NCBI GenBank assembly: GCA_031288185.1
Contig: JAITRZ010000059.1
Span: 1-37,515 of the forward strand
Length of the DNA stretch: 37,515 nt
Reading direction: 5' to 3'
Source: Coriobacteriales bacterium
GTDB taxonomy: Bacteria; Actinomycetota; Coriobacteriia; Coriobacteriales; UBA8131
Each line of letters begins with the position of its first letter. Within the stretch, counting starts at the first letter, position 1. A model generated the notes under the pieces. It was not told the origin of the DNA and ran no database searches. It worked only from the letters and a program-made list of their open reading frames with translations. Both the position numbers and the translations under genes were made by a program. This document shows, piece after piece, positions 4,659 through 16,145 of the stretch.

Positions 4659-4904
4659 TTAGCCCATCATAATGGAATATGCGTGAAGGCTTTTCTCCAC
4701 CCGAACGCGCATGGGAGCAATTCCATGGGCGGCGCAGCAGCAGTAGCGTCGCATTCCCTCCTTGCAGAAGTGGCTCGGTGCCTCCAGCTGGGCCACTTCG
4801 CCTTTATCCAACAGAATGTCAAACTCTCCCGTATCTACAGCCAAATCTCGCAGGAACCGCTTCGCATTCTTATCCAGCGCAGCATTGCACCTGTCAGCGT
4901 ATGC
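4659..4904 (-). pseudogene. Possible broken small gene of about 80 codons, unrecognised
   Basis: On the minus strand, 81 codons are open and have coding-like composition (motifs KRFLRDLAVDTGEFD and HFCKEGMRRYCCC, rich in cysteine), but the frame opens at a TGA (4907-4905) with no ATG or GTG near its beginning. One frame over, an ATG at 4908 has GGAAAG seven bases upstream but meets a stop after four codons. A single-base change joining the two would give a normal gene. The alternative is a TTG start at 4844, or no gene at all. No family is recognised. It lies between the DtxR-type gene and truA on the same strand. Confidence 0.3.
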
Positions 4905-4915
4905 TCATGATAGAC

Positions 4916-5085
4916 TTTCCATGTTCGACAGGCTCATGTTCACAATGGGCCTTCCATTCGCAACGGGCCTCTGTTCATGGCGGGCTTATGCGCGATGGAC
5001 TTGCCGCATAGTCACCAAGGAGATCGTAGATCCTCTCGTATCACCGCGCGACAGGCTGACCGTTCACGACGGGTTGACACTCTTC
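4916..5085. repeat. Degenerate 17-base direct repeats downstream of the DtxR-type gene
   Basis: Read on the minus strand, the gap contains successive units GCCCGCCATGAACAGAG, GCCCGTTGCGAATGGAAG, GCCCATTGTGAACATGA and GCCTGTCGAACATGGAA. Two related copies (CCCGTCGTGAACGGTCA and GCCTGTCGCGCGGTGA) reach back over the end of the regulator gene. A rough consensus is GCCYGTYGYGAAYRKRA. The gap from 4564 to 5063 holds only these repeats and the possible broken gene. Confidence 0.5.
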
Positions 5086-5483
5086 CATTTTTCCATGAAA
5101 GATACCCAGAGGCCCAGGGTCTCGTCGCTGATGGCGTGTTCCATCTTGCAGGCTTCTTCAGCCGCCTGCGCGCTTTCCACCCCTAAAACCGCCGTGAGGA
5201 ACTTGTGCAGAACGTCGTGGCGGCTTTGCACACCACGGGCATAATTGATCCCTCGTCTGGTCAGGGTTATATCGCCGTAATGCGGCTGCTGCACAAACCC
5301 AACGGCCTTTAGGTTGCTAAGTGCCTTGTTCACGCTGGCTTTAGAGACATCAAGTTTGGTAGCCAGGTCTACTGAGCGAACTGACCCCTCCGCGCCGCCC
5401 AGTTGATAGATGGCTTCAAGATAGTCTTCATTGGATGCTGTCAGTTTACCCATGTTGGAATTGTCGCTGGTTACTCTGGCCAT
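5064..5483 (-). CDS. DtxR/MntR-family metal-dependent transcriptional regulator
   Basis: The 139-residue protein has the DtxR-type winged helix near the N-terminus (EDYLEAIYQL, then DLATKLDVSKASVNKALSNL and YGDITLTRRG). The dimerisation domain includes SRHDVLHKFLTAVLGV and ACKMEHAIS, whose His, Cys and Glu residues are the usual metal ligands. There is no SH3-like third domain, so it resembles MntR more than DtxR/IdeR. It probably represses metal-transport genes when Mn(II) or Fe(II) is bound. ATG 5483 has GGGAG seven bases upstream, and a second ATG at 5453 also fits the family's usual start. A TATAAT -10 lies at 5519-5524. No metal transporter is seen in the window, so its targets are elsewhere. 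Confidence 0.88.
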   Translation of the reverse strand: MARVTSDNSNMGKLTASNEDYLEAIYQLGGAEGSVRSVDLATKLDVSKASVNKALSNLKAVGFVQQPHYGDITLTRRGINYARGVQSRHDVLHKFLTAVLGVESAQAAEEACKMEHAISDETLGLWVSFMEKWKSVNPS

Positions 5484-5518
5484 GTTATTCTCCCATACCC
5501 ACGCTTTTAACGTTGTTG

Positions 5519-5524
5519 ATTATA
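5519..5524 (-). promoter_or_regulatory. TATAAT -10 box upstream of the DtxR-type gene
   Basis: A perfect TATAAT (minus strand) lies 35 bases before the ATG at 5483. No convincing -35 is seen at 17 bases, so the promoter may depend on an activator. AACGTT and GTTATAATCAAC are small palindromes nearby and could take part in autoregulation. Confidence 0.4.
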
Positions 5525-5643
5525 ACCGACCTGCTCACAGAAAGGGTTTGCGACTAAGATCTCTCCGTGGCAGACACTGCGGAGGCACGGTTTACGCGAA
5601 GGGGAATGCCGCAAGTGTCACCTCCAGGGCCAAAGAGACATTC

Positions 5644-7461
5644 TCAACGCCTTTGCCGCGACGAGGAGGGGGGAGGCATTGGTTTTTTGGCCGATGCGCC
5701 GTTTGGGACAGGAGACGTTTTGGCCGATGCGCCGTTTGGGACAGGAGTTGGCTTTTTGGTCGATGTGTTGTTTCCCGCGCTACCGCCTACCAAATCTGCG
5801 GCTGAGGTCAGCTCACGGTCCTGTTCCAGCGGCATGGTATCAACCAGTTCGATAAGTTCCTGTTGGGAATGCACGTTGAGCTTGCGATAGATACGCCACG
5901 TATGGGTATTGACCGTACCTTCAGCGATGTAGAGTTTTTGGGCAATGTAGGCGGCATTGCGTCCCTTGGCCAACAGGTAAAATACGTCAAGCTCACGGTT
6001 GGAGAGCAGGTAAGTGTTTGCCACCTTTTCACAGCGACGAACAAAGCGACCGCGGTTTTCAAAGGCGGCATACGGCGGGCCGCCCTTCTCGGCAGAATCA
6101 GAATCCTCGGAAATTGCCATTTCCATAATTGATTTAGCGCGCGGCATCAGAAAGTAGCCTAACAGCATGCAAATAATCATCAGCGTGGTAAAAACCGTGG
6201 GGCCACTGTCAAACTGCGGATTGTCCTGTAAGGTTAGAAACAGGCCGGTTCCCACCAACATCCCCGCAAACAGAAAACCCAGCCCCGTGCCTGTAACCAG
6301 TATGGGCGAGATGCGGTAACGATGCGACATCTCACAAAACTCTACCCAGATCATAAAGAAAAACAGGATAAAGCAGCTAAATACCAGCAGGGTCAGGGGC
6401 AGAACCTCATGCAACATGCTGGTGAAAAAGAGCATGATTGACAGCAAGGGGATAACAAAACGGTAAAAAGAGTCATATTCATCAGCACGATTAACCGTTA
6501 AAAGGAGGATCACCACAAGCAGGGCTAGCAGGGCTGCGGCCACCAAGAGCATGGCGCCCAAACCAGCCGGCAGATTGCTGTCTGAGCCGGAGACAAGGGT
6601 AAAGCACCAACAGGTTAATGGTCCAAAGGCAATACCAAACAGAAACGAGGGACCTCCCATGCGCGCCATGAAAAAGGGTCGTTGCACACGCAAACGGTGA
6701 AAGGTAGGAATCTCCAGCAAACCGGGCACCGCCACCCGAGCGCCGGAGGCGTCGTACTCAAAGCGCTGGGGCTGGGTGAGTGCCTGAAAACCGTGTAGAG
6801 TAAACAACAGGAGCCCCACTTGCAAAAGCGGGAGAAAACCCAGGATGATACCACCAAGGTCAGAACCAGCAAACTGCCTGAGCATCCCAAAACCAACAAA
6901 GGCCAAAGCCTGGCCAAAGATGGTATTTAAGACGATGGAGGGGGTTTCTTGGCGGCGAAATACCTCGCTCCATATCAGAGTAAAAAAGCCTGCGGTTGTT
7001 CCACAAACCAGATAGGCAAACAACGCAAGCGGATAAAGCTCCAGACGCAAACTCTGAAACAGTATCACCGTGCCAAAGGCCAGCAGCACCGCCATGCAAA
7101 GCTGAACAGAACGCATGCGGATAAAATACGTGATACGTCGGCCAATTATCGCCATGACAAGGGCGGTAGCCATAAACAGTAAAAGCGGCACAACATTAAG
7201 GGTGTTGATAATCTGGGTAGGCTTAGTGGCGGATAGTTGCAGGATAGGAAAAGAAGCAAACAAAATAGCATATATCCAGATAAGGTTCAGACAACTGCCA
7301 AATATCATAGCTGGGGAGAGTGCTCGCACGTAAAGGCGAAGGTTTTGGGTGCCATGAGGGTTGTTAACACTGGCGTAAGGGGAAGCGTTTATGTCCGAAC
7401 CGTCAGGATGTACGGCTGCGCTCTGTTCGGTGCTGTGTTTGGTGCTCGAGTTGGTATTCAC
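5644..7461 (-). CDS. LuxR-type regulator with N-terminal multi-pass membrane domain
   Basis: The 605-residue protein has about 12 hydrophobic segments over residues 45-470, followed by a LuxR/NarL-type HTH at roughly residues 495-555 (LSNRELDVFYLLAKGRN, then AEGTVNTHTWRIYRKLNV). This architecture is a large family in Eggerthellaceae, where several members control nearby molybdoenzyme or dehydroxylase genes in response to small-molecule substrates. Its place at the end of the molybdoenzyme island suggests it regulates that island; this is inference. The final 45 residues are a low-complexity tail with repeats of PVPNGASAKK, encoded by direct repeats with a 33-base period (5687 and 5720). The start is GTG 7461 with GGAG upstream. 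Confidence 0.88.
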   Translation of the reverse strand: MNTNSSTKHSTEQSAAVHPDGSDINASPYASVNNPHGTQNLRLYVRALSPAMIFGSCLNLIWIYAILFASFPILQLSATKPTQIINTLNVVPLLLFMATALVMAIIGRRITYFIRMRSVQLCMAVLLAFGTVILFQSLRLELYPLALFAYLVCGTTAGFFTLIWSEVFRRQETPSIVLNTIFGQALAFVGFGMLRQFAGSDLGGIILGFLPLLQVGLLLFTLHGFQALTQPQRFEYDASGARVAVPGLLEIPTFHRLRVQRPFFMARMGGPSFLFGIAFGPLTCWCFTLVSGSDSNLPAGLGAMLLVAAALLALLVVILLLTVNRADEYDSFYRFVIPLLSIMLFFTSMLHEVLPLTLLVFSCFILFFFMIWVEFCEMSHRYRISPILVTGTGLGFLFAGMLVGTGLFLTLQDNPQFDSGPTVFTTLMIICMLLGYFLMPRAKSIMEMAISEDSDSAEKGGPPYAAFENRGRFVRRCEKVANTYLLSNRELDVFYLLAKGRNAAYIAQKLYIAEGTVNTHTWRIYRKLNVHSQQELIELVDTMPLEQDRELTSAADLVGGSAGNNTSTKKPTPVPNGASAKTSPVPNGASAKKPMPPPSSSRQRR

Positions 7462-7594
7462 TGCTGAGGCGCTCCAACGATACGGGAAAAAGAACCTTAA
7501 TCGGGAAAAAACGCAAGAACATCAAGAGAGAACAACATGGCAGGACACAATCCCCAGACAAAGCACGAGCAAACAACTTGTCAAGGTACAGGCT

Positions 7595-7962: not shown

Positions 7963-8634
7963 TCACCGCACACGCAAGCCGGTCACAAGAGAGCCCGCGA
8001 CACCGTCATCGTTCACATCCTCAACCAAGCGGTTAACCTTCTCAAGCATCGCGATAGCATCGTCGTAAACCTCGCCAAAGAACTGGCGTCCTGCGTCAGC
8101 GTCGAAATAGTAGGGTTGGTATTCATCCAGCACCTTGAAGAGGCTGTTATTCTCTAACGCTCGGCGCGTTGTTTTAATGTAGTTTTGATCATGGCCAGAT
8201 GCGTCCAGTAAGCCCTTGAGGAGAGCAGGCAGCCTATCGTAATCTGCGTACTTGTGTATATACGCAGTGACCGTAGCGTCCTTTGCCAAATTAAACTTAT
8301 CAAACTTGGCCTGGAGCTTAACAAAGCTCGGCACAAAATCAAGTCTGTCATCGGGAAATCCAGCATAATAGTAGGCGAGCATAAACTGCTCTATGCTGTT
8401 GTAAATGGTGTAAAAAAAGGGTATGAGTGAACGCGCGTCGGAGGTTCCCGCCGGAGGCGCGCCATGAGCCTCGACATAATCTTTATAGCGCCCCTCATTC
8501 ATCATATCGTCAAGATTGCCGGTGGTCATTGCATCGTATTTTTCTATGAGATTTTTAACTAAGAGCAGGTACTTACCAGCAGACATCCAAGCAGTCTTGG
8601 CTAAAAGATAGGAAAATTCATCGGCTTGAGCCAT
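7963..8634 (-). CDS. Unknown helical protein of the molybdoenzyme island
   Basis: The 223-residue protein has no recognised domain, signal peptide or membrane segment. It is predicted to be largely helical, with many Tyr, Phe, Asp and Lys residues (for example YNSIEQFMLAYYYAG and FFGEVYDDAIAMLEKVN). No metal-binding cysteines are visible and it does not show the TorD/DmsD chaperone signature. It starts at ATG 8634 with an AAGGAG-type site (CTAAGGAGAAAAGGC) upstream, lies 80 bases after the OFA transporter on the same strand, and is followed by the palindrome cluster. Being last in the row, it may be an accessory or binding protein of the island. Function is not assigned. Confidence 0.7.
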   Translation of the reverse strand: MAQADEFSYLLAKTAWMSAGKYLLLVKNLIEKYDAMTTGNLDDMMNEGRYKDYVEAHGAPPAGTSDARSLIPFFYTIYNSIEQFMLAYYYAGFPDDRLDFVPSFVKLQAKFDKFNLAKDATVTAYIHKYADYDRLPALLKGLLDASGHDQNYIKTTRRALENNSLFKVLDEYQPYYFDADAGRQFFGEVYDDAIAMLEKVNRLVEDVNDDGVAGSLVTGLRVR

Positions 8635-8714
8635 GCCTTTTCTCCTTAGCTATTTCGTGTGTTCTGGGTTGACGTTTGCGGCCGCAAGGCAGGTGATCAC
8701 CGCGAGGCGGGCGT

Positions 8715-9995
8715 TTATTGTAGCTCTTTGGCAATGGTGGCAAGGTCTGCCTTATACACCTTGCCAAAAGCCAAAGTGGCCACAAGGGCTCCCGCCGCGA
8801 GCACAGCTAAGATGGCATAGATGATGGGCCCGTTGGCACCAGCCGGCGAGCCTAACGCAGCAACAATGATAATGTTGATAACGGCGGCTGACGCGATGTT
8901 GCAATTAGCGATACCTAAGTTCATCGCAAATCCCAAGGCGCCATACCGCTGACGCGCGTAGGCAGAGGCCATGACCGGCACCGAGCCATAGGGCATGGCC
9001 ACTAGGATGGCGGCAACTATGTACAGGGAGCCTAACTGCAGGGCTAGCGAGACAGACAGGCCTATCATAGTAGCGATGGCTAATACCGAGGACAGTAACA
9101 TAACCGGCAACAGGCCCACCTTATCAAAGATAGCGCCGTTGATGATGCGACCAACACCATTCATGGTGGAAACCAGGCCAACGAGCAAAGCACCAAACCC
9201 AACAAAGATAGTGTCATCAAGATGCAGTGTGGTGGCTCCCTGTGCCGCAGTCCCAATTAAGGTAAGGCCACAGGCGATAATAAAAGTGGCCCAGACACAA
9301 TAAATCCAAAAGACCTTGGTCTTGAGTATGGGTTGTTGTTGGGTAGGACTCACTTTGGCCTTGGCTGTTGCGCCCTCAAGCCCCAGTTTGGTTCCAATAT
9401 CCTTGGGTGCGGGCTTGACAATAAACGCCAAGGCAAGCATGACTACAAAGGCGACAATGGCGATGATAATGAACACCGTAGTCCAGTCCATAATGCCAAA
9501 CATAGCGTTAGCCACTGAGCCAAACACCAGGGAGGAAATGCCAAAACCCATCATTTGCACACCGGAACAAAGGCCGATGCGATCAGGAAACCAGGGATTA
9601 ACAAGCGAAATGATTGCGTTATAGGCAATGCCACAACCTGATCCAGCAAAGACACCGTAGAACAAAAACAGGGCCCATACATCTAAGCCAGCCCCGTAGG
9701 CGGTGAGAATGAAACCTGTTGCCATCAAGATGGCGGCTACGATAATGGTGAGCTTTGCAGAGGTTTTCTTGATAAGCTGTGCCCCACCCAGAGCTGACAG
9801 GCAAAACGCAAACATTGAAACTTGGAATACCTGCGGCAGAAATGGGCCATAGCTGGTGAAATGTTTGCCGATGGGAGCGGCAAAAATTGACCAGGCATAA
9901 ATAAGACCCAGTATCAACAAGGTGATGGTGGCACTTATAAGGTAGACAATTCTTCTACTCTTAATCTGGCCAATGGACAACTCTGTAGAACTCAT
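8715..9995 (-). CDS. MFS transporter, oxalate/formate antiporter (OFA) type
   Basis: The predicted 426-residue protein has 12 hydrophobic segments. Near the N-terminus, LGLIYAWSIFAAPI is typical of OFA-family carriers, and MGFGISSLVFGSV and FDKVGLLPVMLLSS follow the family layout. OFA members exchange or import small mono- and dicarboxylates. ATG 9995 is chosen because GAGGAGG sits five to six bases upstream; a longer reading to 10040 adds 15 residues without a better site. In the island it could export the product or import a second substrate. The family assignment is good; the substrate is inference only. Confidence 0.85.
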   Translation of the reverse strand: MSSTELSIGQIKSRRIVYLISATITLLILGLIYAWSIFAAPIGKHFTSYGPFLPQVFQVSMFAFCLSALGGAQLIKKTSAKLTIIVAAILMATGFILTAYGAGLDVWALFLFYGVFAGSGCGIAYNAIISLVNPWFPDRIGLCSGVQMMGFGISSLVFGSVANAMFGIMDWTTVFIIIAIVAFVVMLALAFIVKPAPKDIGTKLGLEGATAKAKVSPTQQQPILKTKVFWIYCVWATFIIACGLTLIGTAAQGATTLHLDDTIFVGFGALLVGLVSTMNGVGRIINGAIFDKVGLLPVMLLSSVLAIATMIGLSVSLALQLGSLYIVAAILVAMPYGSVPVMASAYARQRYGALGFAMNLGIANCNIASAAVINIIIVAALGSPAGANGPIIYAILAVLAAGALVATLAFGKVYKADLATIAKELQ

Positions 9996-10051
9996 GTAGG
10001 CCTCCTCATAGCCTTGCTGCCAAGCAGTGTTTGGCATCACTGCGCTGTCTT

Positions 10052-10237
10052 CTATCGGGTGCCGGGACGCACCCGCTTAACACTAGTTGGATCAAGCGTC
10101 GCGCCACATTTCTTACATTTTTTCGCGGTGGGACTATTAAAGGTATTGCATTGCTCGCAAAACCCACGGGGAACGATCTTGGATTGAAACCCGCCCTGGC
10201 AGCGCCCGCAGCCAGAACAACCATAACCACAAGACAT
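10052..10237 (-). CDS. Small zinc-ribbon protein (61 residues)
   Basis: The short cysteine-rich protein begins MSCGYGCSGCGRC and then has a classic zinc ribbon with CEQC and CKKC knuckles at roughly residues 27-44. It ends in a basic tail. The ATG at 10237 has an AAGGAG site at good spacing. Such ribbons bind Zn(II) and often act as adaptors for protein or nucleic acid partners. It is the second of two adjacent zinc-ribbon genes within the island, which argues for a real, functional pair. The partner is unknown. Confidence 0.78.
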   Translation of the reverse strand: MSCGYGCSGCGRCQGGFQSKIVPRGFCEQCNTFNSPTAKKCKKCGATLDPTSVKRVRPGTR

Positions 10238-10361
10238 TGCGCAACTCCTTCATGTTCTGCTCAAAGCAAGGGCCCACACGGCTGCAACAGTCGTATGAGC
10301 CCTATACATATCCCTTGGGGGACATCGGCTTTGGGCTACCCACTAGCCACAGAGAGCCAAA

Positions 10362-10676
10362 TCAGGCACCGGGCGGTTTGGGAGCACCAGGAGCACCAGG
10401 AGCCTTGGGGGCACCAGGAGCGCCGGGCGGTTTAGGAGCACCAGGTGCCTTGGGAGCGCCAGGGGCACCAGGAGCACCGGGCGGTTTAGGAGCACCAGGG
10501 GCACCTCCGCCCATAGCACTGGCCATCTGGGCCTTGTACTCATCCTCGTACTTGCTTAAATCAGCCTTACAAAACGGACATTTCTTCATGACAACGCCGC
10601 CAATTACCATTAGCTTTTTACCGCATTCCGGACATACTGGATCGGGCATGTCCACGCCCGCTGGCCTAAAACACAT
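10362..10676 (-). CDS. Zinc-ribbon protein with proline-rich triplet-repeat tail (104 residues)
   Basis: Residues 1-60 carry two knuckles, CPEC and CPFC, separated by a short beta region, and a linker ending in YEDEYKAQM. From about residue 60 to the end, the sequence is a regular triplet repeat in which position 1 is Gly or Lys, position 2 is Ala or Pro and position 3 is always Pro. About 15 triplets are present, encoded by GC-rich tandem DNA repeats (10365-10503). This resembles collagen-like or polyproline II segments, with lysine in place of some glycines. ATG 10676 has GGGAG five bases upstream; a TTG at 10688 would add four residues. Function is unknown. Confidence 0.75.
   Translation of the reverse strand: MCFRPAGVDMPDPVCPECGKKLMVIGGVVMKKCPFCKADLSKYEDEYKAQMASAMGGGAPGAPKPPGAPGAPGAPKAPGAPKPPGAPGAPKAPGAPGAPKPPGA
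10365..10503. repeat. Tandem 9-base-unit repeats encoding the GAP/KPP tail
   Basis: The 3' part of the zinc-ribbon gene is composed of repeated units such as GGAGCACCA, GGAGCGCCG and GGCGGTTTG, arranged in higher-order blocks that stay in frame. Copies vary mainly at third codon positions, which suggests selection on the protein and not only recent slippage. Confidence 0.75.
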
Positions 10677-10822
10677 ACAATCTCCCAACTAGGTTGCCTG
10701 CACTAACATCCCCATCATAACACATTTCCTGCTGGCCTAAAAAAGCTAACCGGTAAGCAGCCGTTCAAGGCACTTGGCCACCTCTTCCTGGCTTTTTGAG
10801 GCGGCCAAAGACAAAACCCGCC

Positions 10823-11128
10823 TTAAGCGAGGCCCGTGCCTTTGATGGCTTTTTCGTTCTTGGCCTTATCGCCCACCATTTCAGCTCCCTTGATGATCTC
10901 GCTCTCGGCCTCATTGCCACTAAGCCGAGTGGTCTGATAGCCACGCATTGGTTTGATGTTGAACGCTTTCTTAGGTGGCACGTAAAACACGCCAATCTTG
11001 CCCAAACCGGCCTTATCCGTGCCAAGTATGGCATAAACATCCTCCGGTGTCTTGCCATCTGCAAGCTTTGCATTGAGCCAGGTCTGCTGCTCTTCAGTGC
11101 TCAAATCAACAAATTCATCAAAAGTCAT
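10823..11128 (-). CDS. Small soluble protein of the molybdoenzyme island (101 residues)
   Basis: The protein starts MTFDEFVDLSTEEQQ and has a helical N-terminal half (WLNAKLADGKTPEDVYAILG followed by GLGKIGVFYV) whose spacing resembles a helix-turn-helix of the type seen in small phage or plasmid regulators. The C-terminal part is polar and lysine-rich. ATG 11128 has GGAGGG eight bases upstream, clearly better than an in-frame start at 11227 that runs into a hairpin. No signal peptide, cysteine or membrane segment is present. DNA binding is only a suggestion from pattern. It follows the ferredoxin gene after a strong hairpin. Confidence 0.7.
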   Translation of the reverse strand: MTFDEFVDLSTEEQQTWLNAKLADGKTPEDVYAILGTDKAGLGKIGVFYVPPKKAFNIKPMRGYQTTRLSGNEAESEIIKGAEMVGDKAKNEKAIKGTGLA

Positions 11129-11213
11129 AGCAGTACCCTCCTTCAAAATCCTAGTCGCGTCCATTGCCACGGGCCTAAACAGGCAATGTTTCGGCGGCAA
11201 CGAACCTTGGTGA

Positions 11214-11238
11214 GTGGCCCCGCCCAAGGCGGGGCCAC
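11214..11238 (-). terminator. Perfect 11-bp hairpin after the ferredoxin gene
   Basis: GTGGCCCCGCC and GGCGGGGCCAC form a perfect stem with a three-base CAA loop, 13 bases past the ferredoxin stop. No run of T follows on the minus strand, so it is more likely a partial terminator, a 3'-end stabiliser or a processing site than a full intrinsic terminator. Confidence 0.6.
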
Positions 11239-11251
11239 CGTCAAAATGCCG

Positions 11252-11605
11252 TTACGGCTTGATGATGCTTACCTTATGGCCTATCTCCAGGGCACGCTTG
11301 GCCAGCTCATCAACCGGGCCTATCTCGATGCAGAAAGCCAGGCAGTGTTTAACACACGATGCCTTCTTTCCGGCTTCAAGACGGTCAACGCATAAATCAC
11401 ACAGTGCTGTGGGCACCGGGATATAATCCCAATCCCACGCATCAGGGTCATCCTCATCTAAATGGTAGGGACCCTTCTCCAAAACTACAATACCGGGCTT
11501 TTTGGCCAGGTCTGTCTTAAGGTGGTATTTGCAAGCCACCTCGCAGGTGTGGCAGTTGGAGCAATACTTATAGTCAAACAAAAGACCATAGTTCTCGTAT
11601 GCCAT
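11252..11605 (-). CDS. Two-cluster [4Fe-4S] ferredoxin subunit paired with the molybdoenzyme
   Basis: The 117-residue protein has cysteines C15, C18, C21 and C25 (CxxCxxCxxxC) and a second group C69, C72, C84 and C88, with an additional C92. This is the layout of one half of a DmsB-type electron-transfer subunit and fits two [4Fe-4S] clusters. It probably passes electrons to the molybdopterin enzyme encoded 29 bases upstream. There is no signal peptide or membrane anchor, so the pair should act in the cytoplasm. ATG 11605 has AGGAGG upstream. The acidic insert between the two cysteine groups (LDEDDPDAWDWDY) is not typical of DmsB and may be partner-specific. Confidence 0.85.
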   Translation of the reverse strand: MAYENYGLLFDYKYCSNCHTCEVACKYHLKTDLAKKPGIVVLEKGPYHLDEDDPDAWDWDYIPVPTALCDLCVDRLEAGKKASCVKHCLAFCIEIGPVDELAKRALEIGHKVSIIKP

Positions 11606-11634
11606 TTCATAACCTCCTTCAAAGGCGACTTGTC

Positions 11635-14136
11635 TTAATACTGAACTTCCAGAGAAAGTCCACTCGGTGCGGGAATTACCCCATCGGCAACATAGGTTGG
11701 CCTGTTCTTCTGCTTCTCCATGGCTGCGGCGATACCAGGTCTGTGCGTGCTGTGATAGTCAAGCACGCGCGCTGGATCAACGCCTTCGTCGGCAACCAGC
11801 TCATCCAGATCCTTAACGATGTCGTAACTCTTCTTTAGCTTGAGACCATGCAGGTCATCAACCTTCTTGATAGAACAGAACACGCTCTTCATCGGAGCGC
11901 CAAAACCAAGGCGGCCGATATCAAAGTGCGGCACCAGGTTATTGATGTTGGACTTCCACACACCAAACAGATTAGGCTCTTCGCCGTCCTGCTCCGGATA
12001 CCACCAACCATGGCGGGTGTGTACTACGCGCGGATCGATAGTGATAACCAAAGTAGCCTTTTGACGCGCCCGACCAAAAGGATTCTCCACCTCCACCCAA
12101 TCGCCTTCCTGGATGCCGTACTTGGCAGCAGTGTCCGGGTGAATCTCAATATCGGGATACTCGCGAAAGTGGCGCAACGTGGGGAACATGCGGTGCTCAG
12201 AGTGGAACGTGTTGTACTCACGAGCGCCCGTGCACATCATAAGCGGATACTTATCGGCCAGCTCAGGATGGCTCACCGGGCTCCAACGTGGCTCTTCAAA
12301 GTAGGGCAGCGGATCCTCGCCCCAGGCATCAAAGAGTGTTGAATACAGCTCTACCAAACCGGTAACGGTGTTAAAGCCAGGTTCGCCGTCAAAGCGCAAC
12401 AGGCCCTTTTCATATTTGCGATAGGTAAAACCGGGTTGATACAGGCCAATGCGACGCAACTCATCAAAGTCAAAGCCCAGCTCTGGCAGAGTCTGCTTGG
12501 AGAAGAAGTCTGGGACGTACTTATCACGCGTATCGCCCTCAAAGACGTTCCAGGTTGAGGTACCGTCTGGGCCAGCGTTGTTGAGACGCTTGCCAAACTC
12601 AATGCAGACCTCAACGTCAGACATGGTTTCACCAACACGTAAAGCCTCGTTCATGGCACCCAAAAAGACCGTGTTGCGGCCATAGTGGGTGATAACGATA
12701 GCGTCATGCTCACAAACCGTGGGCAGGGGCAAAAAGACATCACCACAGGCCATGGCCGTGGGGGTCATGACAAGATCCTGCACCACGACAAACTCAGCCT
12801 TGATGTAGGCATCATGCCACCGAATCGGAGCGGCGCAGCAGGTAGGAGCCAGGTTGTTTGAGCTGTTGAACCACAGCATCTTGATCTCGTAGGGCTCGCC
12901 GGTTTCCAGCACATCCAAGGTAAAGTCTGGATGGGTTGTCGCCATGGCGTTAGACAGTGCCGGATACTCAGCAGAACCCAGGCGCTTGTCCCACAACTCA
13001 GGAGCCAAATCCTTACGGGTCTCCATGCGCCACTTGCCCAAAAGCGATGAGGGTGGGCCTACGCAAAGACCGCCAGGAATGTCGATATTGCCGGTTATCG
13101 CCTGAAGAGCGATGGTGATATGACCAACCTGCGTACCGTTGGGGCTTTGGTCAACGGCCAGGCCCCAGGCGATGGAAACAGGCTTCTCAGCCATAGCGCG
13201 AGCGACCTTTTTTATCTGCTCAACAGGCGCCCAAGTAACCTCAGAAACAAGTTCTGGGGTGTACTGCAAGACACGCTCCTTAAACTCATCCCAACCAAAG
13301 CACCACTGGTCAATCCACTCTTGATCCTGAAGATTTTCAGTAATAATGACGTTGGCGATGCCAAGGCCGATAGCGGCATCGGTGCCCGGCTTTATCTGCA
13401 AGTTCATGTTGCCTTCGCGTGCGCCCAACCACGTGATGCGCGGATCAATCATGATAATCTTGGTGCCCATTTTCATCATGTCAATGAGGGCATGGCCAAA
13501 CAGGCCGTCGCCGTTGGAGGCCAGGGGCATTTTACCCCAGCAAACAATGTACTTGGGCAGCTCAAACTCAGGGTTGTCGTAGCGATCCTCAAAGTAACCG
13601 GCAAAATCGATCTCAGGATAGCCAGCGCCCAGGATGTAATCGGTGATAGAACACCGCGGTCCGTAGCAAGACCAACCGGATTGCGCATAACAGACATTGG
13701 GAGTTTGCAGGGTTGAGAAGGCAAGCGGATAATAGTAGATGCAAGCCTCGCGGCCCGTACCACCAATTACCAGGATCGACTCGGCACCATAGGTCTCCTT
13801 AAAGTAATTGACCTTGCCGCAGACCAAATCAAACGTCTCGTCCCAACTGATACGCTCCCATTTGTCTTTGCCTCTGTCCGCAGGATCACGCTTCATCGGA
13901 TAAAGGATGCGTGAGGGGGAGTGCACTATCTCAGGAAAGTCCAACGCACGAATGCACAGGCGCCCCTGGGTAATGGCGTGTTCCTCATCTCCTTCCACGT
14001 CAACCAACTTGCCGTCTTTGACGGTTAGCCACATACCACAGCCAACCGGGTGGTCACCGGGTGGTGACCAGCACGTGGTGCGCACACTGACAGAACCGTC
14101 AGGGTTTTGCTTCTTCCACTCTCTACTCATTGCCAT
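11635..14136 (-). CDS. Cytoplasmic molybdopterin oxidoreductase, DMSO-reductase superfamily (dehydroxylase/hydratase-like)
   Basis: The predicted 833-residue protein has the DMSO-reductase superfamily fold: an N-terminal iron-sulfur region, KWERISWDE near residue 92, bis-MGD binding stretches, and a C-terminal molydopterin dinucleotide-binding domain (GDWVEVENPFGRARQ, TRHGWWYPEQ). There is no Tat signal, so it works in the cytoplasm. The cluster region is odd: C22, C33 and C61 are present, with C33 and C61 at the canonical x27 spacing, but the position expected for the second cysteine is Asp28 (CWSPPGDHPVGCG). The Mo ligand may be Cys157 or Cys162. With a ferredoxin and an aromatic-acid transporter beside it, a reductive dehydroxylase or related activity is plausible but not shown. 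ATG 14136 has GGAGGAAC upstream. Confidence 0.85.
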   Translation of the reverse strand: MAMSREWKKQNPDGSVSVRTTCWSPPGDHPVGCGMWLTVKDGKLVDVEGDEEHAITQGRLCIRALDFPEIVHSPSRILYPMKRDPADRGKDKWERISWDETFDLVCGKVNYFKETYGAESILVIGGTGREACIYYYPLAFSTLQTPNVCYAQSGWSCYGPRCSITDYILGAGYPEIDFAGYFEDRYDNPEFELPKYIVCWGKMPLASNGDGLFGHALIDMMKMGTKIIMIDPRITWLGAREGNMNLQIKPGTDAAIGLGIANVIITENLQDQEWIDQWCFGWDEFKERVLQYTPELVSEVTWAPVEQIKKVARAMAEKPVSIAWGLAVDQSPNGTQVGHITIALQAITGNIDIPGGLCVGPPSSLLGKWRMETRKDLAPELWDKRLGSAEYPALSNAMATTHPDFTLDVLETGEPYEIKMLWFNSSNNLAPTCCAAPIRWHDAYIKAEFVVVQDLVMTPTAMACGDVFLPLPTVCEHDAIVITHYGRNTVFLGAMNEALRVGETMSDVEVCIEFGKRLNNAGPDGTSTWNVFEGDTRDKYVPDFFSKQTLPELGFDFDELRRIGLYQPGFTYRKYEKGLLRFDGEPGFNTVTGLVELYSTLFDAWGEDPLPYFEEPRWSPVSHPELADKYPLMMCTGAREYNTFHSEHRMFPTLRHFREYPDIEIHPDTAAKYGIQEGDWVEVENPFGRARQKATLVITIDPRVVHTRHGWWYPEQDGEEPNLFGVWKSNINNLVPHFDIGRLGFGAPMKSVFCSIKKVDDLHGLKLKKSYDIVKDLDELVADEGVDPARVLDYHSTHRPGIAAAMEKQKNRPTYVADGVIPAPSGLSLEVQY

Positions 14137-14204
14137 AATGTTCCTCCTTCTTGGGATGCTTCTGGACAATACGAACACTGCTGTATCCTTACTGCCTCAA
14201 GCGG

Positions 14205-14374
14205 GCAAGCGCGTACCCACTTGCGACAGCGAGAATCAAAGTTGCGCCACGGGGACTGCCTGTGGCTTGAGGGCCTGAGCCCTCAGAAAACGCACGCGCC
14301 CAGAGAACGTACGGTTCTCAAAGAGCCTGTGCTCTTAACAGGAGGGCTCAACCGCCCAAGTAGCGGCTGAGCCC
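14205..14374 (-). promoter_or_regulatory. Array of six consecutive hairpins upstream of the molybdoenzyme gene
   Basis: The 252-base gap before the molybdoenzyme folds into successive hairpins: 14344-14374 (12-base arms, one G-T pair), 14321-14336 (AAGAGC/GCTCTT), 14303-14319 (GAGAAC/GTTCTC), 14268-14285 (TGAGGGC/GCCCTCA), 14246-14266 (GCCAC/GTGGC) and 14205-14224 (GCAAG/CTTGC). The first could end transcription behind the small membrane protein gene. The rest make a long structured leader. This could be an attenuator, a riboswitch or a processing region; no known riboswitch class is claimed. Confidence 0.5.
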
Positions 14375-14388
14375 TTGTTGTGAAAAAG

Positions 14389-14601
14389 CTACTTCTTTCC
14401 GCCTTTGGCTATCTCCAAACCAGCAAAGATGAAAAAGTGGATAAAGGGAAGTATCAAAGCCAGAATCATAAGCGGCAAACGGACGGTTGCGTAGGCCGCA
14501 TTACCTGTCAGCAACAGCGGACAGAAGATGCAGGCAATAAGCATGTAGGTCAAAATTACCATCATGCTCCAAAAAGCAATATCGTTTTCTTTTCTTTCCA
14601 T
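14389..14601 (-). CDS. Small two-helix membrane protein (70 residues)
   Basis: The protein has a short polar start, two hydrophobic helices (about residues 10-32 and 42-62) and a basic end (EIAKGGKK), so both termini are probably cytoplasmic. ATG 14601 lies 11 bases after the stop of the AAHS transporter, with GGAGG in that gap, so the two are translated together. Cysteines at residues 24 and 27 lie in or near the first helix. It may be a small partner or assembly factor for the transporter. No family is recognised. Confidence 0.72.
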   Translation of the reverse strand: MERKENDIAFWSMMVILTYMLIACIFCPLLLTGNAAYATVRLPLMILALILPFIHFFIFAGLEIAKGGKK

Positions 14602-14612
14602 GACATGCCTCC

Positions 14613-16145
14613 TTATGACTTTACGGCTTCAGTTACGAGGGTATCGAGATCCTTGCCGCCAGTCTCACGACGCAGGAAGACGAAGGTGCAGAGCAGGCCG
14701 ATAGCCGCCGGCGCCAGCAACAACAGCATGATCTGGTTCCAATTGCCGCCAAAAATTGGCGTAATCGCACTAAAGACAATAGGCGCTGCGGCCCCGCCAA
14801 AGCGGGCGAAAGCCTGACACCAGGCAACCCCGGTGTTTCGCACCTGCGTGGGATAACTCTCTGGCATCAGCGGCTGTACACCAGTGATGGCAAAATTCAT
14901 CGCAAAACCGATGAGGAAGAACAGGAACATGCAGTAGGCAAACGCACCTGGGCCAACGGTAAGGGCAAAGATAACAACCGCTACCATCAAGAACAGCCAG
15001 GAGAAGATCAGGGTGCGCTTACGGCCAAACTTATCGGAAAGGAAACCGACCGTTACGTTGGAGCAGATAGCAGCCACATTGTTGAAGGTCTGCATGGCCG
15101 AGGCATCAGCGGGTGTATACCCAAAGCCCGTCATCATGGGCACCATCCAGGGATTGAGACCATAGACAAACACCTGGCCAATAAAATACAACGTCCAGAT
15201 AGCTGCGGTGGCCACGATAAATCTGCTTGAGAACAGAACCTTGGGGTTGGCGCTGGCGACCTTGGGCGGAACAATCAGGTTAGCAGCGTCAAGGGTGCCA
15301 AAGTCCTGGGTGCTGTTGGCGGTTAGAGCACGCAGCCGCTCCACTGCCTTTTCAGTGCGACCAGAATTTGCGTACCAGTGAGGGGTTTCTTTCATGAGTA
15401 GACCAAGCAATGCGCCATAGAGCACCGGGAGCACACCTATCAGGTAGGCCATGCGCCAGTTTTGGGTCTGTCCTGCCAACTGGGTTCCGTCAGCGCCGGT
15501 AAGCGAGTAGATTTCAGACATCGCGTCGGACGCAAACGGGATGACGATGGCATCCTTGATCCCATTGAGGTTTGTGATAACCAAACCGGCCAATACCCAG
15601 CCAAAGACCATGAAGGCCATCCCAAAGGTTACAAACACACCGCGATTTTTGGAGGGAATGGTTTCTGAGAAATAGGTGGTCACTACCGGGATACAGGAAC
15701 CAACGCCCAAACCAGCGATAAGCCTGGTGGTGGCGTAAAACGCAAAATCGGTGGCGTAGGCCTGGGGCAGCGTAAAAGCGCCATAGAAGATGATCGCGAT
15801 GACCAAGGTCTTTTTACGGCCGATCTTATCAGACAGGATACCGCCTAACGCGCCGCCGATAACCATGCCCAAAAGACCCCAGGTTGATATGGAACTTCCC
15901 AGTGCCTGCAGTTGGGCCTTGCCCTCTACAACCTTGACAATTGAGGTATTAGCGGTATCACCACCAAGGGCGATAAAATGCTGCAGGGTGTTGGCCACGT
16001 TAGCCGTGGTTTGGCTGGCGACCATGAAGTCATAGCCATCAAAGATCATCGCAAACCCAAGAAAGAAGAACGTCACCCAGGTGAAAGGGTTGACGCCCAG
16101 CTTGTCGATAATCTCTGAGACCGTAAATCGATTGCTTTCTGACAT
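14613..16145 (-). CDS. MFS transporter, aromatic acid:H+ symporter (AAHS) family
   Basis: The 510-residue protein has 12 hydrophobic segments. The first carries the AAHS-type DGYD motif (FAMIFDGYDFM), the loop after segment 2 has GGILSDKIGRKKT and the later loop has GFLSDKFGRKRT, the two MFS signature loops. A large loop lies between segments 6 and 7. AAHS carriers import benzoate-type and other aromatic or carboxylic acids with protons. It starts at ATG 16145 with GGAGGATAA directly upstream. As the first gene of the island, it most likely brings in the molybdoenzyme's substrate. The exact substrate cannot be read from sequence. Confidence 0.88.
   Translation of the reverse strand: MSESNRFTVSEIIDKLGVNPFTWVTFFFLGFAMIFDGYDFMVASQTTANVANTLQHFIALGGDTANTSIVKVVEGKAQLQALGSSISTWGLLGMVIGGALGGILSDKIGRKKTLVIAIIFYGAFTLPQAYATDFAFYATTRLIAGLGVGSCIPVVTTYFSETIPSKNRGVFVTFGMAFMVFGWVLAGLVITNLNGIKDAIVIPFASDAMSEIYSLTGADGTQLAGQTQNWRMAYLIGVLPVLYGALLGLLMKETPHWYANSGRTEKAVERLRALTANSTQDFGTLDAANLIVPPKVASANPKVLFSSRFIVATAAIWTLYFIGQVFVYGLNPWMVPMMTGFGYTPADASAMQTFNNVAAICSNVTVGFLSDKFGRKRTLIFSWLFLMVAVVIFALTVGPGAFAYCMFLFFLIGFAMNFAITGVQPLMPESYPTQVRNTGVAWCQAFARFGGAAAPIVFSAITPIFGGNWNQIMLLLLAPAAIGLLCTFVFLRRETGGKDLDTLVTEAVKS

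Follow-up and report, generated by a model that had tools for sequence, protein, structure and literature searches.

What does a run of nine genes around a molybdoenzyme do in a Coriobacteriales bacterium, and does it correspond to a system already described? The run occupies positions 7963-16145 of contig JAITRZ010000059.1 (assembly GCA_031288185.1), a stretch of 37,515 nucleotides that is referred to here as the window. All nine open reading frames (ORFs) lie on the minus strand, next to a minus-strand gene for a LuxR-type membrane regulator (5644-7461). This layout had been given in a preliminary description made from the sequence alone and was borne out, with two start codons corrected: the 101-aa protein starts at 11128 and the zinc-ribbon/Ala-Pro protein at 10676 (MCFRPA...). 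The shared strand and small gaps (11, 252, 29, 123, 146, 124, 53, and 80 bp between the nine genes; 501 bp before the regulator) suggest one or a few transcripts. Our favored answer is that the genes encode a cytoplasmic, inducible catechol-dehydroxylase respiration system, with hydrocaffeate or a close phenylpropanoid relative as the probable substrate.

The central gene (11635-14136) encodes an 833-aa enzyme with a bis(molybdopterin guanine dinucleotide) (bis-MGD) cofactor, assigned by Pfam matches (PF00384, PF01568, PF04879), trees, and a motif survey to the catalytic subunits of Gordonibacter-type catechol dehydroxylases. No twin-arginine motif is found in its first 40 residues, and no transmembrane windows are predicted. 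Acetylene hydratase (2e7z) is its best solved relative (217 bits, 4e-63), and the Cys of its SGWSCYGPR motif aligns with the acetylene hydratase Cys that we take to be the tungsten ligand; pyrogallol transhydroxylase (4v4c) scores only 34 bits. Acetylene hydratase is the closest solved enzyme for all catechol dehydroxylases (PMC7028382). Gordonibacter-type enzymes (PMC7028382, PMC11887054) lack a twin-arginine translocation (Tat) signal and are accompanied by a small 4Fe-4S partner, MFS carriers, and transmembrane LuxR regulators (PMC7028382, PMC12771579). The window presents the same set: an acetylene-hydratase-like subunit that groups with them in trees, no Tat signal, a small 4Fe-4S protein, and neighboring MFS and transmembrane LuxR genes. 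Judged by these features, the 833-aa protein counts among the Gordonibacter-type catechol dehydroxylases, being soluble and Tat-less, and reductive hydroxyl removal is predicted for it. When the Fe-S region was left out of a carefully built tree, it falls with Gp Hcdh-type enzymes in an 18-row clade (bootstrap 100, SH-aLRT 99), a placement with which a larger quick tree agrees. The host genome holds several paralogues (29-51% identity); Gordonibacter, Raoultibacter, and Ellagibacter hold dozens.

The meaning of this clade depends on recognizing Gp Hcdh, and reference enzymes were located from published descriptions, not by accession. A genome that matches the dadh primer exactly was treated as that of Eggerthella lenta. 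Of the enzymes in the cluster following dadh, the longest (635376-638810) was taken to be El Vadh; El Hcdh was recognized as the sole enzyme there whose identity to El Vadh over its length is about 60-64%, the published value being 60.6% (PMC11585353). The regulator about 7 kb from El Hcdh was taken as HcdR. In Gordonibacter, a single homologue of it stands out (48%, 500 bits, against 77 bits for the next best), as does a single one in Ellagibacter (44%, 403 bits). The former flanks a locus (L150; comparison loci carry L numbers) with the order LuxR / AAHS / MCFRP / enzyme / small subunit / U101, and the latter lies within about 10 kb of the corresponding enzyme. These L150-type enzymes measure 770 aa in Gordonibacter, Raoultibacter, and several others, and 771 aa in Ellagibacter. 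Published accounts give Gp Hcdh as 770 aa, its regulator Unk-9R as 44% identical to HcdR, and Gordonibacter, Raoultibacter, and Ellagibacter among its host genera (PMC11585353). Since linkage to an HcdR homologue, length, and host genera all agree, the L150-type enzymes are very probably Gp Hcdh orthologues. Gp Hcdh (Unk-9) is also the closest CHARACTERISED relative of the enzyme in the window, at 57% identity.

Five of the nine genes recur in Gp Hcdh-type loci: AAHS, the zinc-ribbon protein MCFRP, enzyme, small subunit, and the 101-aa U101. The AAHS-type MFS aromatic-acid/H+ symporter (14613-16145, 510 aa; TIGR00895 1.1e-55, MhpT 1e-38), likely an importer of a phenolic acid, is 52-53% identical (~525 bits) to the carriers of Gp Hcdh-type loci L150, L153, L156, L162, and L164. 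Eleven bp after it, a 70-aa membrane protein with two transmembrane windows (14389-14601) matches part of fused AAHS ORFs of ~560 aa in L150, L153, L156, L162, L163, and L164 (E 4e-11 to 2e-08). The fused carriers are ~50 aa longer than the AAHS of the window, and because they contain the matching part, the 70-aa protein is, on this comparison, a split-off C-terminal extension of the symporter. Farther along, the OFA-type MFS carrier (8715-9998, 427 aa; SfMCT NF049980 1e-55, TIGR00890 9e-39) is likely a product exporter or a second transporter. The 605-aa multi-transmembrane LuxR-type regulator (GerE 2e-15; hydrophobic N-terminal region) finds its best E. lenta match in the regulator beside El Vadh (166 bits) and is an HcdR/VadR relative.

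The preliminary description was right about a molybdoenzyme that is cytoplasmic and reductive, has a dedicated ferredoxin, transporters, and a transmembrane LuxR regulator, and probably acts on an aromatic acid. Its statement that no nameable system matches was mistaken: the system is a Gordonibacter-type catechol dehydroxylase whose clade includes the probable Gp Hcdh orthologues. The condition it had set for its own refutation had a divided outcome: the enzyme does group firmly with a characterized clade, though one whose substrate is related, and comparison of the neighborhoods of its homologues found the surrounding genes conserved with it. Because of the Gp Hcdh clade and the five shared genes, hydrocaffeate-like dehydroxylation is the most likely function, and the pathway that had been called new is not wholly so; the part that stands is its set of accessory small proteins, conserved with the enzyme across phyla.

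From the enzyme's family and clade, the gene content, the missing Tat signal, and the linkage, we infer the substrate, the reaction, the direction of the carriers, and the roles of the small proteins as follows. The AAHS symporter with its split two-helix extension would bring in a 3,4-dihydroxyphenyl acid, for which hydrocaffeate or a closely related compound is the likeliest candidate. The molybdoenzyme, with the two-cluster ferredoxin subunit supplying the electrons, would reductively take a hydroxyl off the ring at its molybdenum, and U101 would be a cofactor-free third partner docking on this pair, probably via its conserved C-terminal tail. MCFRP and a 61-aa zinc ribbon may serve metal-cofactor assembly or electron input, OFA would export the product, and the transmembrane LuxR protein would induce the cluster when the substrate is present. 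Gp Hcdh with hydrocaffeate supports ATP formation (PMC11585353), so a role in anaerobic respiration is likely here too.

Several findings weigh against hydrocaffeate, and they bear on the strongest alternative, in which family and mechanism are the same and the enzyme acts on a different catechol or pyrogallol acid, such as caffeate, protocatechuate, gallate, 3,4-dihydroxyphenylacetate (DOPAC), or a lignin fragment. Within the clade, the sister relation of the window enzyme to the Gp Hcdh group has moderate support (81/82). Catechol dehydroxylases are split into putatively isofunctional clusters at ≥60% identity (PMC11585353) and are strictly substrate-specific (narrow specificity is noted in PMC11887054); at 57%, the window enzyme falls below the level of the Gp Hcdh group, so its substrate may differ. 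Raoultibacter carries both window-like (L152/L017) and Gp Hcdh-like enzymes, and the window-like L152 has as neighbors a PF00939 Na+/sulfate-symporter-type carrier and an MFS carrier (4741-6156, 6238-7515) in place of AAHS, which hints at diverged functions and a different substrate. In some termite relatives, an enzyme 86% identical to that of the window stands beside an AAHS only 52% identical to its counterpart, and the regulator of the window, being nearer the El Vadh regulator than HcdR, is not an HcdR orthologue. The probable Dodh locus (L185) likewise has both carriers, AAHS and OFA, the latter 38% identical to that of the window, and the termite diet is, as a matter of general knowledge, rich in other lignocellulose phenolics. 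On the other side, both the enzyme tree and the AAHS carrier favor Gp Hcdh over Dodh (39% for the enzyme, 36% for the carrier). Another substrate keeps an appreciable minority chance, and hydrocaffeate or a close relative is preferred.

The iron-sulfur ligands vary within the clade. The gene after the enzyme (11252-11605) encodes a two-cluster [4Fe-4S] electron-transfer subunit of 117 aa (DmsB-like, TIGR02951 2e-12), with the motifs CX2CX2CX3C and CX2CX11CX3C and nine Cys in all, enough for two clusters; in almost every related locus, a homologue comes after the enzyme. In the motif survey, most family members have a normal Cys set at the catalytic-subunit site FS0. The window enzyme has C22, D28, C33, and C61 (CX5DX4C), with Asp for one of the four Cys, and termite relatives are alike. 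The normal set is absent in L013, L017, L152, and L165 (L017 and L152 being the Raoultibacter paralogues, in which this cluster is lost), and Gp Hcdh-type enzymes have no FS0 ligands at all (SNTWSPPGSHPVGYG...GRVN). Their small subunits have lost the cluster Cys as well (FSGNHAAEIAC...TSIFSEHWG), with one or two unrelated Cys left; such pairs, lacking both, occur in L150 (small subunit 10182-10541), L153 (8696-9091), L156, L160-L164, L167, and L168. Read from these motifs, the ligands erode stepwise, from the Asp-substituted site of the window through Raoultibacter to none in the Gp Hcdh type. The general type is described with an iron-sulfur partner (PMC11887054); the account of Gp Hcdh calls the small subunit "accessory" and reports molybdenum, and the word "iron" is absent from its main text (PMC11585353). 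A cluster-free state of Gp Hcdh-type enzymes, not found stated in these accounts, is what the sequences point to.

U101, a conserved protein of 101 aa without Cys (10823-11128), comes directly after the enzyme and its ferredoxin in every member of the clade but the Desulfuromonas relative L012. Of the 397 genomes of the order, 65 contain a homologue, and in the loci examined these homologues directly follow the enzyme/ferredoxin pair, except in L146 (an enzyme fragment near) and L169 (distant enzymes only). On the enzyme tree, U101 is distributed over the window/Gp Hcdh clade, L012 excepted, and a separate dehydroxylase lineage (L042, L091, L155 (6040-8439)) in which the FS0 Cys are again lost, three changes in total. 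As a raw count, an intact FS0 ligand set is present in 0 of 38 U101-linked enzymes vs 58 of 89 without U101, the middle categories being mechanical and including outgroups with other spacing. No significance attaches to this association because the tree holds only three U101 changes, on which an independent-pairs test cannot reach it. A neighboring lineage of L042/L091/L155, represented by L096 and L099, has lost FS0 and has no detectable U101.

The AlphaFold2 model of U101 comprises four helices and a β hairpin, resembling a helix-turn-helix (HTH), and a disordered tail that holds strongly conserved residues (KPMRGYQTT..SGNE or RAWGGYTSTK.TGNE). A search of the PDB for a known fold gave only insignificant matches (E > 1), many of them HTH or winged-helix proteins. 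We regard U101 as a candidate third subunit or assembly factor on the strength of its linkage and conservation. That it is instead a co-transcribed small DNA-binding regulator and no part of the enzyme seems unlikely: the HTH-like outline, the many HTH and winged-helix proteins among the weak matches, and the lack of Cys to hold a cluster would fit such a role, but it follows enzyme and ferredoxin in both Coriobacteriales and Peptococcaceae whether or not a LuxR gene lies in the stretch examined, none of the 58 scored enzymes with intact FS0 Cys has it, its conservation reaches into the disordered tail as in a docking peptide, and all of its fold matches are insignificant. With U101 as an enzyme partner, a tentative picture, held with somewhat less than even confidence, is of an enzyme branch that replaces its Fe-S wiring with a new partner: U101 would be a third subunit where the cluster is altered, and Gp Hcdh would be cluster-free in both subunits, its "ferredoxin" serving as a scaffold. 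Redox-neutral chemistry without reductase activity, whether the hydration known from acetylene hydratase or the hydroxyl transfer known from pyrogallol transhydroxylase, is very improbable. In its favor, acetylene hydratase is the best solved homologue, and a dispensable electron flow would lead one to expect ligand erosion across the clade. Against it, pyrogallol transhydroxylase matches weakly and has a different small subunit, a nine-Cys ferredoxin is retained in the window, and reductive dehydroxylation is proven for the clade relative Gp Hcdh (PMC11585353).

The accessory small proteins had been singled out as unusual, rightly so: U101 and the MCFRP family were not found in the cited accounts of catechol dehydroxylases. 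MCFRP (10362-10676) combines an N-terminal zinc ribbon (CX2C...CPXC) with a Gly/Ala/Pro repeat tail. Of the order's 397 genomes, 106 contain the family, with up to 18 copies (8-17 in Gordonibacter and Raoultibacter genomes; none in the genus Eggerthella among the matches listed), and 27 of 30 sampled copies lie ≤1.5 kb from a dehydroxylase or its small subunit. MCFRP thus accompanies many Gordonibacter-type enzymes and may assist them. The length of its repeat tail differs among relatives. After it, in termite-group loci as well as in L013, L165, and Raoultibacter L152/L017, comes a 61-aa protein (10052-10237) with eight Cys, which has a CX3CX2CX2C motif at its N terminus and also a C4 zinc ribbon. 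The last gene of the run (7963-8634) encodes a 223-aa all-helical protein (AlphaFold2 pLDDT 90), confined among the loci examined to the termite-gut group and conserved in position after OFA in L001, L003-L009, and L045. It is possibly a dedicated chaperone; a TorD-type chaperone was considered and set aside, as no Pfam family and no PDB fold match from the model was found. The protein has NxIExxxKxYxY after a helix, recalling HEPN-type proteins, with no database or fold match backing HEPN.

The host genome (1.81 Mb, 89% complete) belongs to a family (f1, 33 genomes) different from that of the Gordonibacter and Eggerthella genomes (f5), within the same order. Its nearest relatives are presumably termite-gut genomes, judged from isolate-series codes; a literature search for termite Coriobacteriales molybdoenzymes gave nothing on point. 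The gene order is largely kept in about ten other Coriobacteriales loci, so the arrangement is not due to chance, and the termite-group loci add the 61-aa zinc-ribbon protein, the OFA carrier, and the 223-aa helical protein. Beyond the order, the core of enzyme, ferredoxin, U101, and MCFRP is present in Peptococcaceae (L011, and L065 on a contig with the enzyme's end only), and L012 has the enzyme, ferredoxin, and an MFS carrier. One metagenome-assembled genome labeled Gracilibacteraceae (L005) carries the entire termite-type locus with an enzyme 86% identical, reflecting either a binning error or a recent transfer.

These results extend an enzyme class known for polyphenol metabolism in the human gut to termite guts, Peptococcaceae, and a Desulfuromonas, and name two small protein families, U101 and MCFRP, that travel with it. 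In human gut data, Gp Hcdh is reported to be transcribed more than any other catechol dehydroxylase, and the Gp Hcdh-type enzymes, which very probably include it, lack all Fe-S cluster Cys in both subunits, contradicting the published two-subunit iron-sulfur picture. How electrons reach Gp Hcdh becomes directly testable, with the window enzyme, Asp-substituted in its cluster site and paired with an intact ferredoxin, as a useful intermediate.

Among known systems, pyrogallol-phloroglucinol transhydroxylase shares the bis-MGD cofactor and action on phenolic rings, but is a distant match, and its small subunit is larger and has three clusters, in contrast to the 117 aa and nine Cys in the window. 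Acetylene hydratase shares the aligned Cys of the active-site region, yet is a hydratase of 727 aa without a ferredoxin subunit, with CX2CX3C at FS0. Eggerthella-type enzymes (Dadh, El Hcdh, El Vadh) belong to the same acetylene-hydratase-related branch and have related transmembrane LuxR regulators; unlike the system described here, they are exported membrane enzymes of three subunits, and their accessory set is a different one that includes a TorD-like chaperone as well as a protein with a helicase domain (PMC11887054). No enzyme could be assigned as Gs Vadh: an MFS carrier is present in L151, but the ORFs tested at that locus are not LysR. Closer are Dodh, recognized by one published quantitative PCR primer with one mismatch and labeled only probable because the second primer was not found, and the probable Eadh1-3, found next to an Eah-like amidohydrolase. 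Both are two-subunit cytoplasmic systems of the same family with MFS and LuxR neighbors (PMC12771579), the probable Dodh with AAHS and OFA, but they have intact FS0 Cys and no U101, and lie outside the clade at 39-44% identity. Closest is Gp Hcdh, soluble and without a signal, in the same supported clade and with a transmembrane LuxR gene. It differs in length (770 vs 833 aa), in having lost the Fe-S ligands of both subunits where the window retains three Cys, an Asp, and the nine-Cys ferredoxin, and in the fusion of AAHS to the two-helix domain that is split in the window; its gene run lacks the second zinc ribbon, the OFA carrier, and the 223-aa protein, all three of which the window has.

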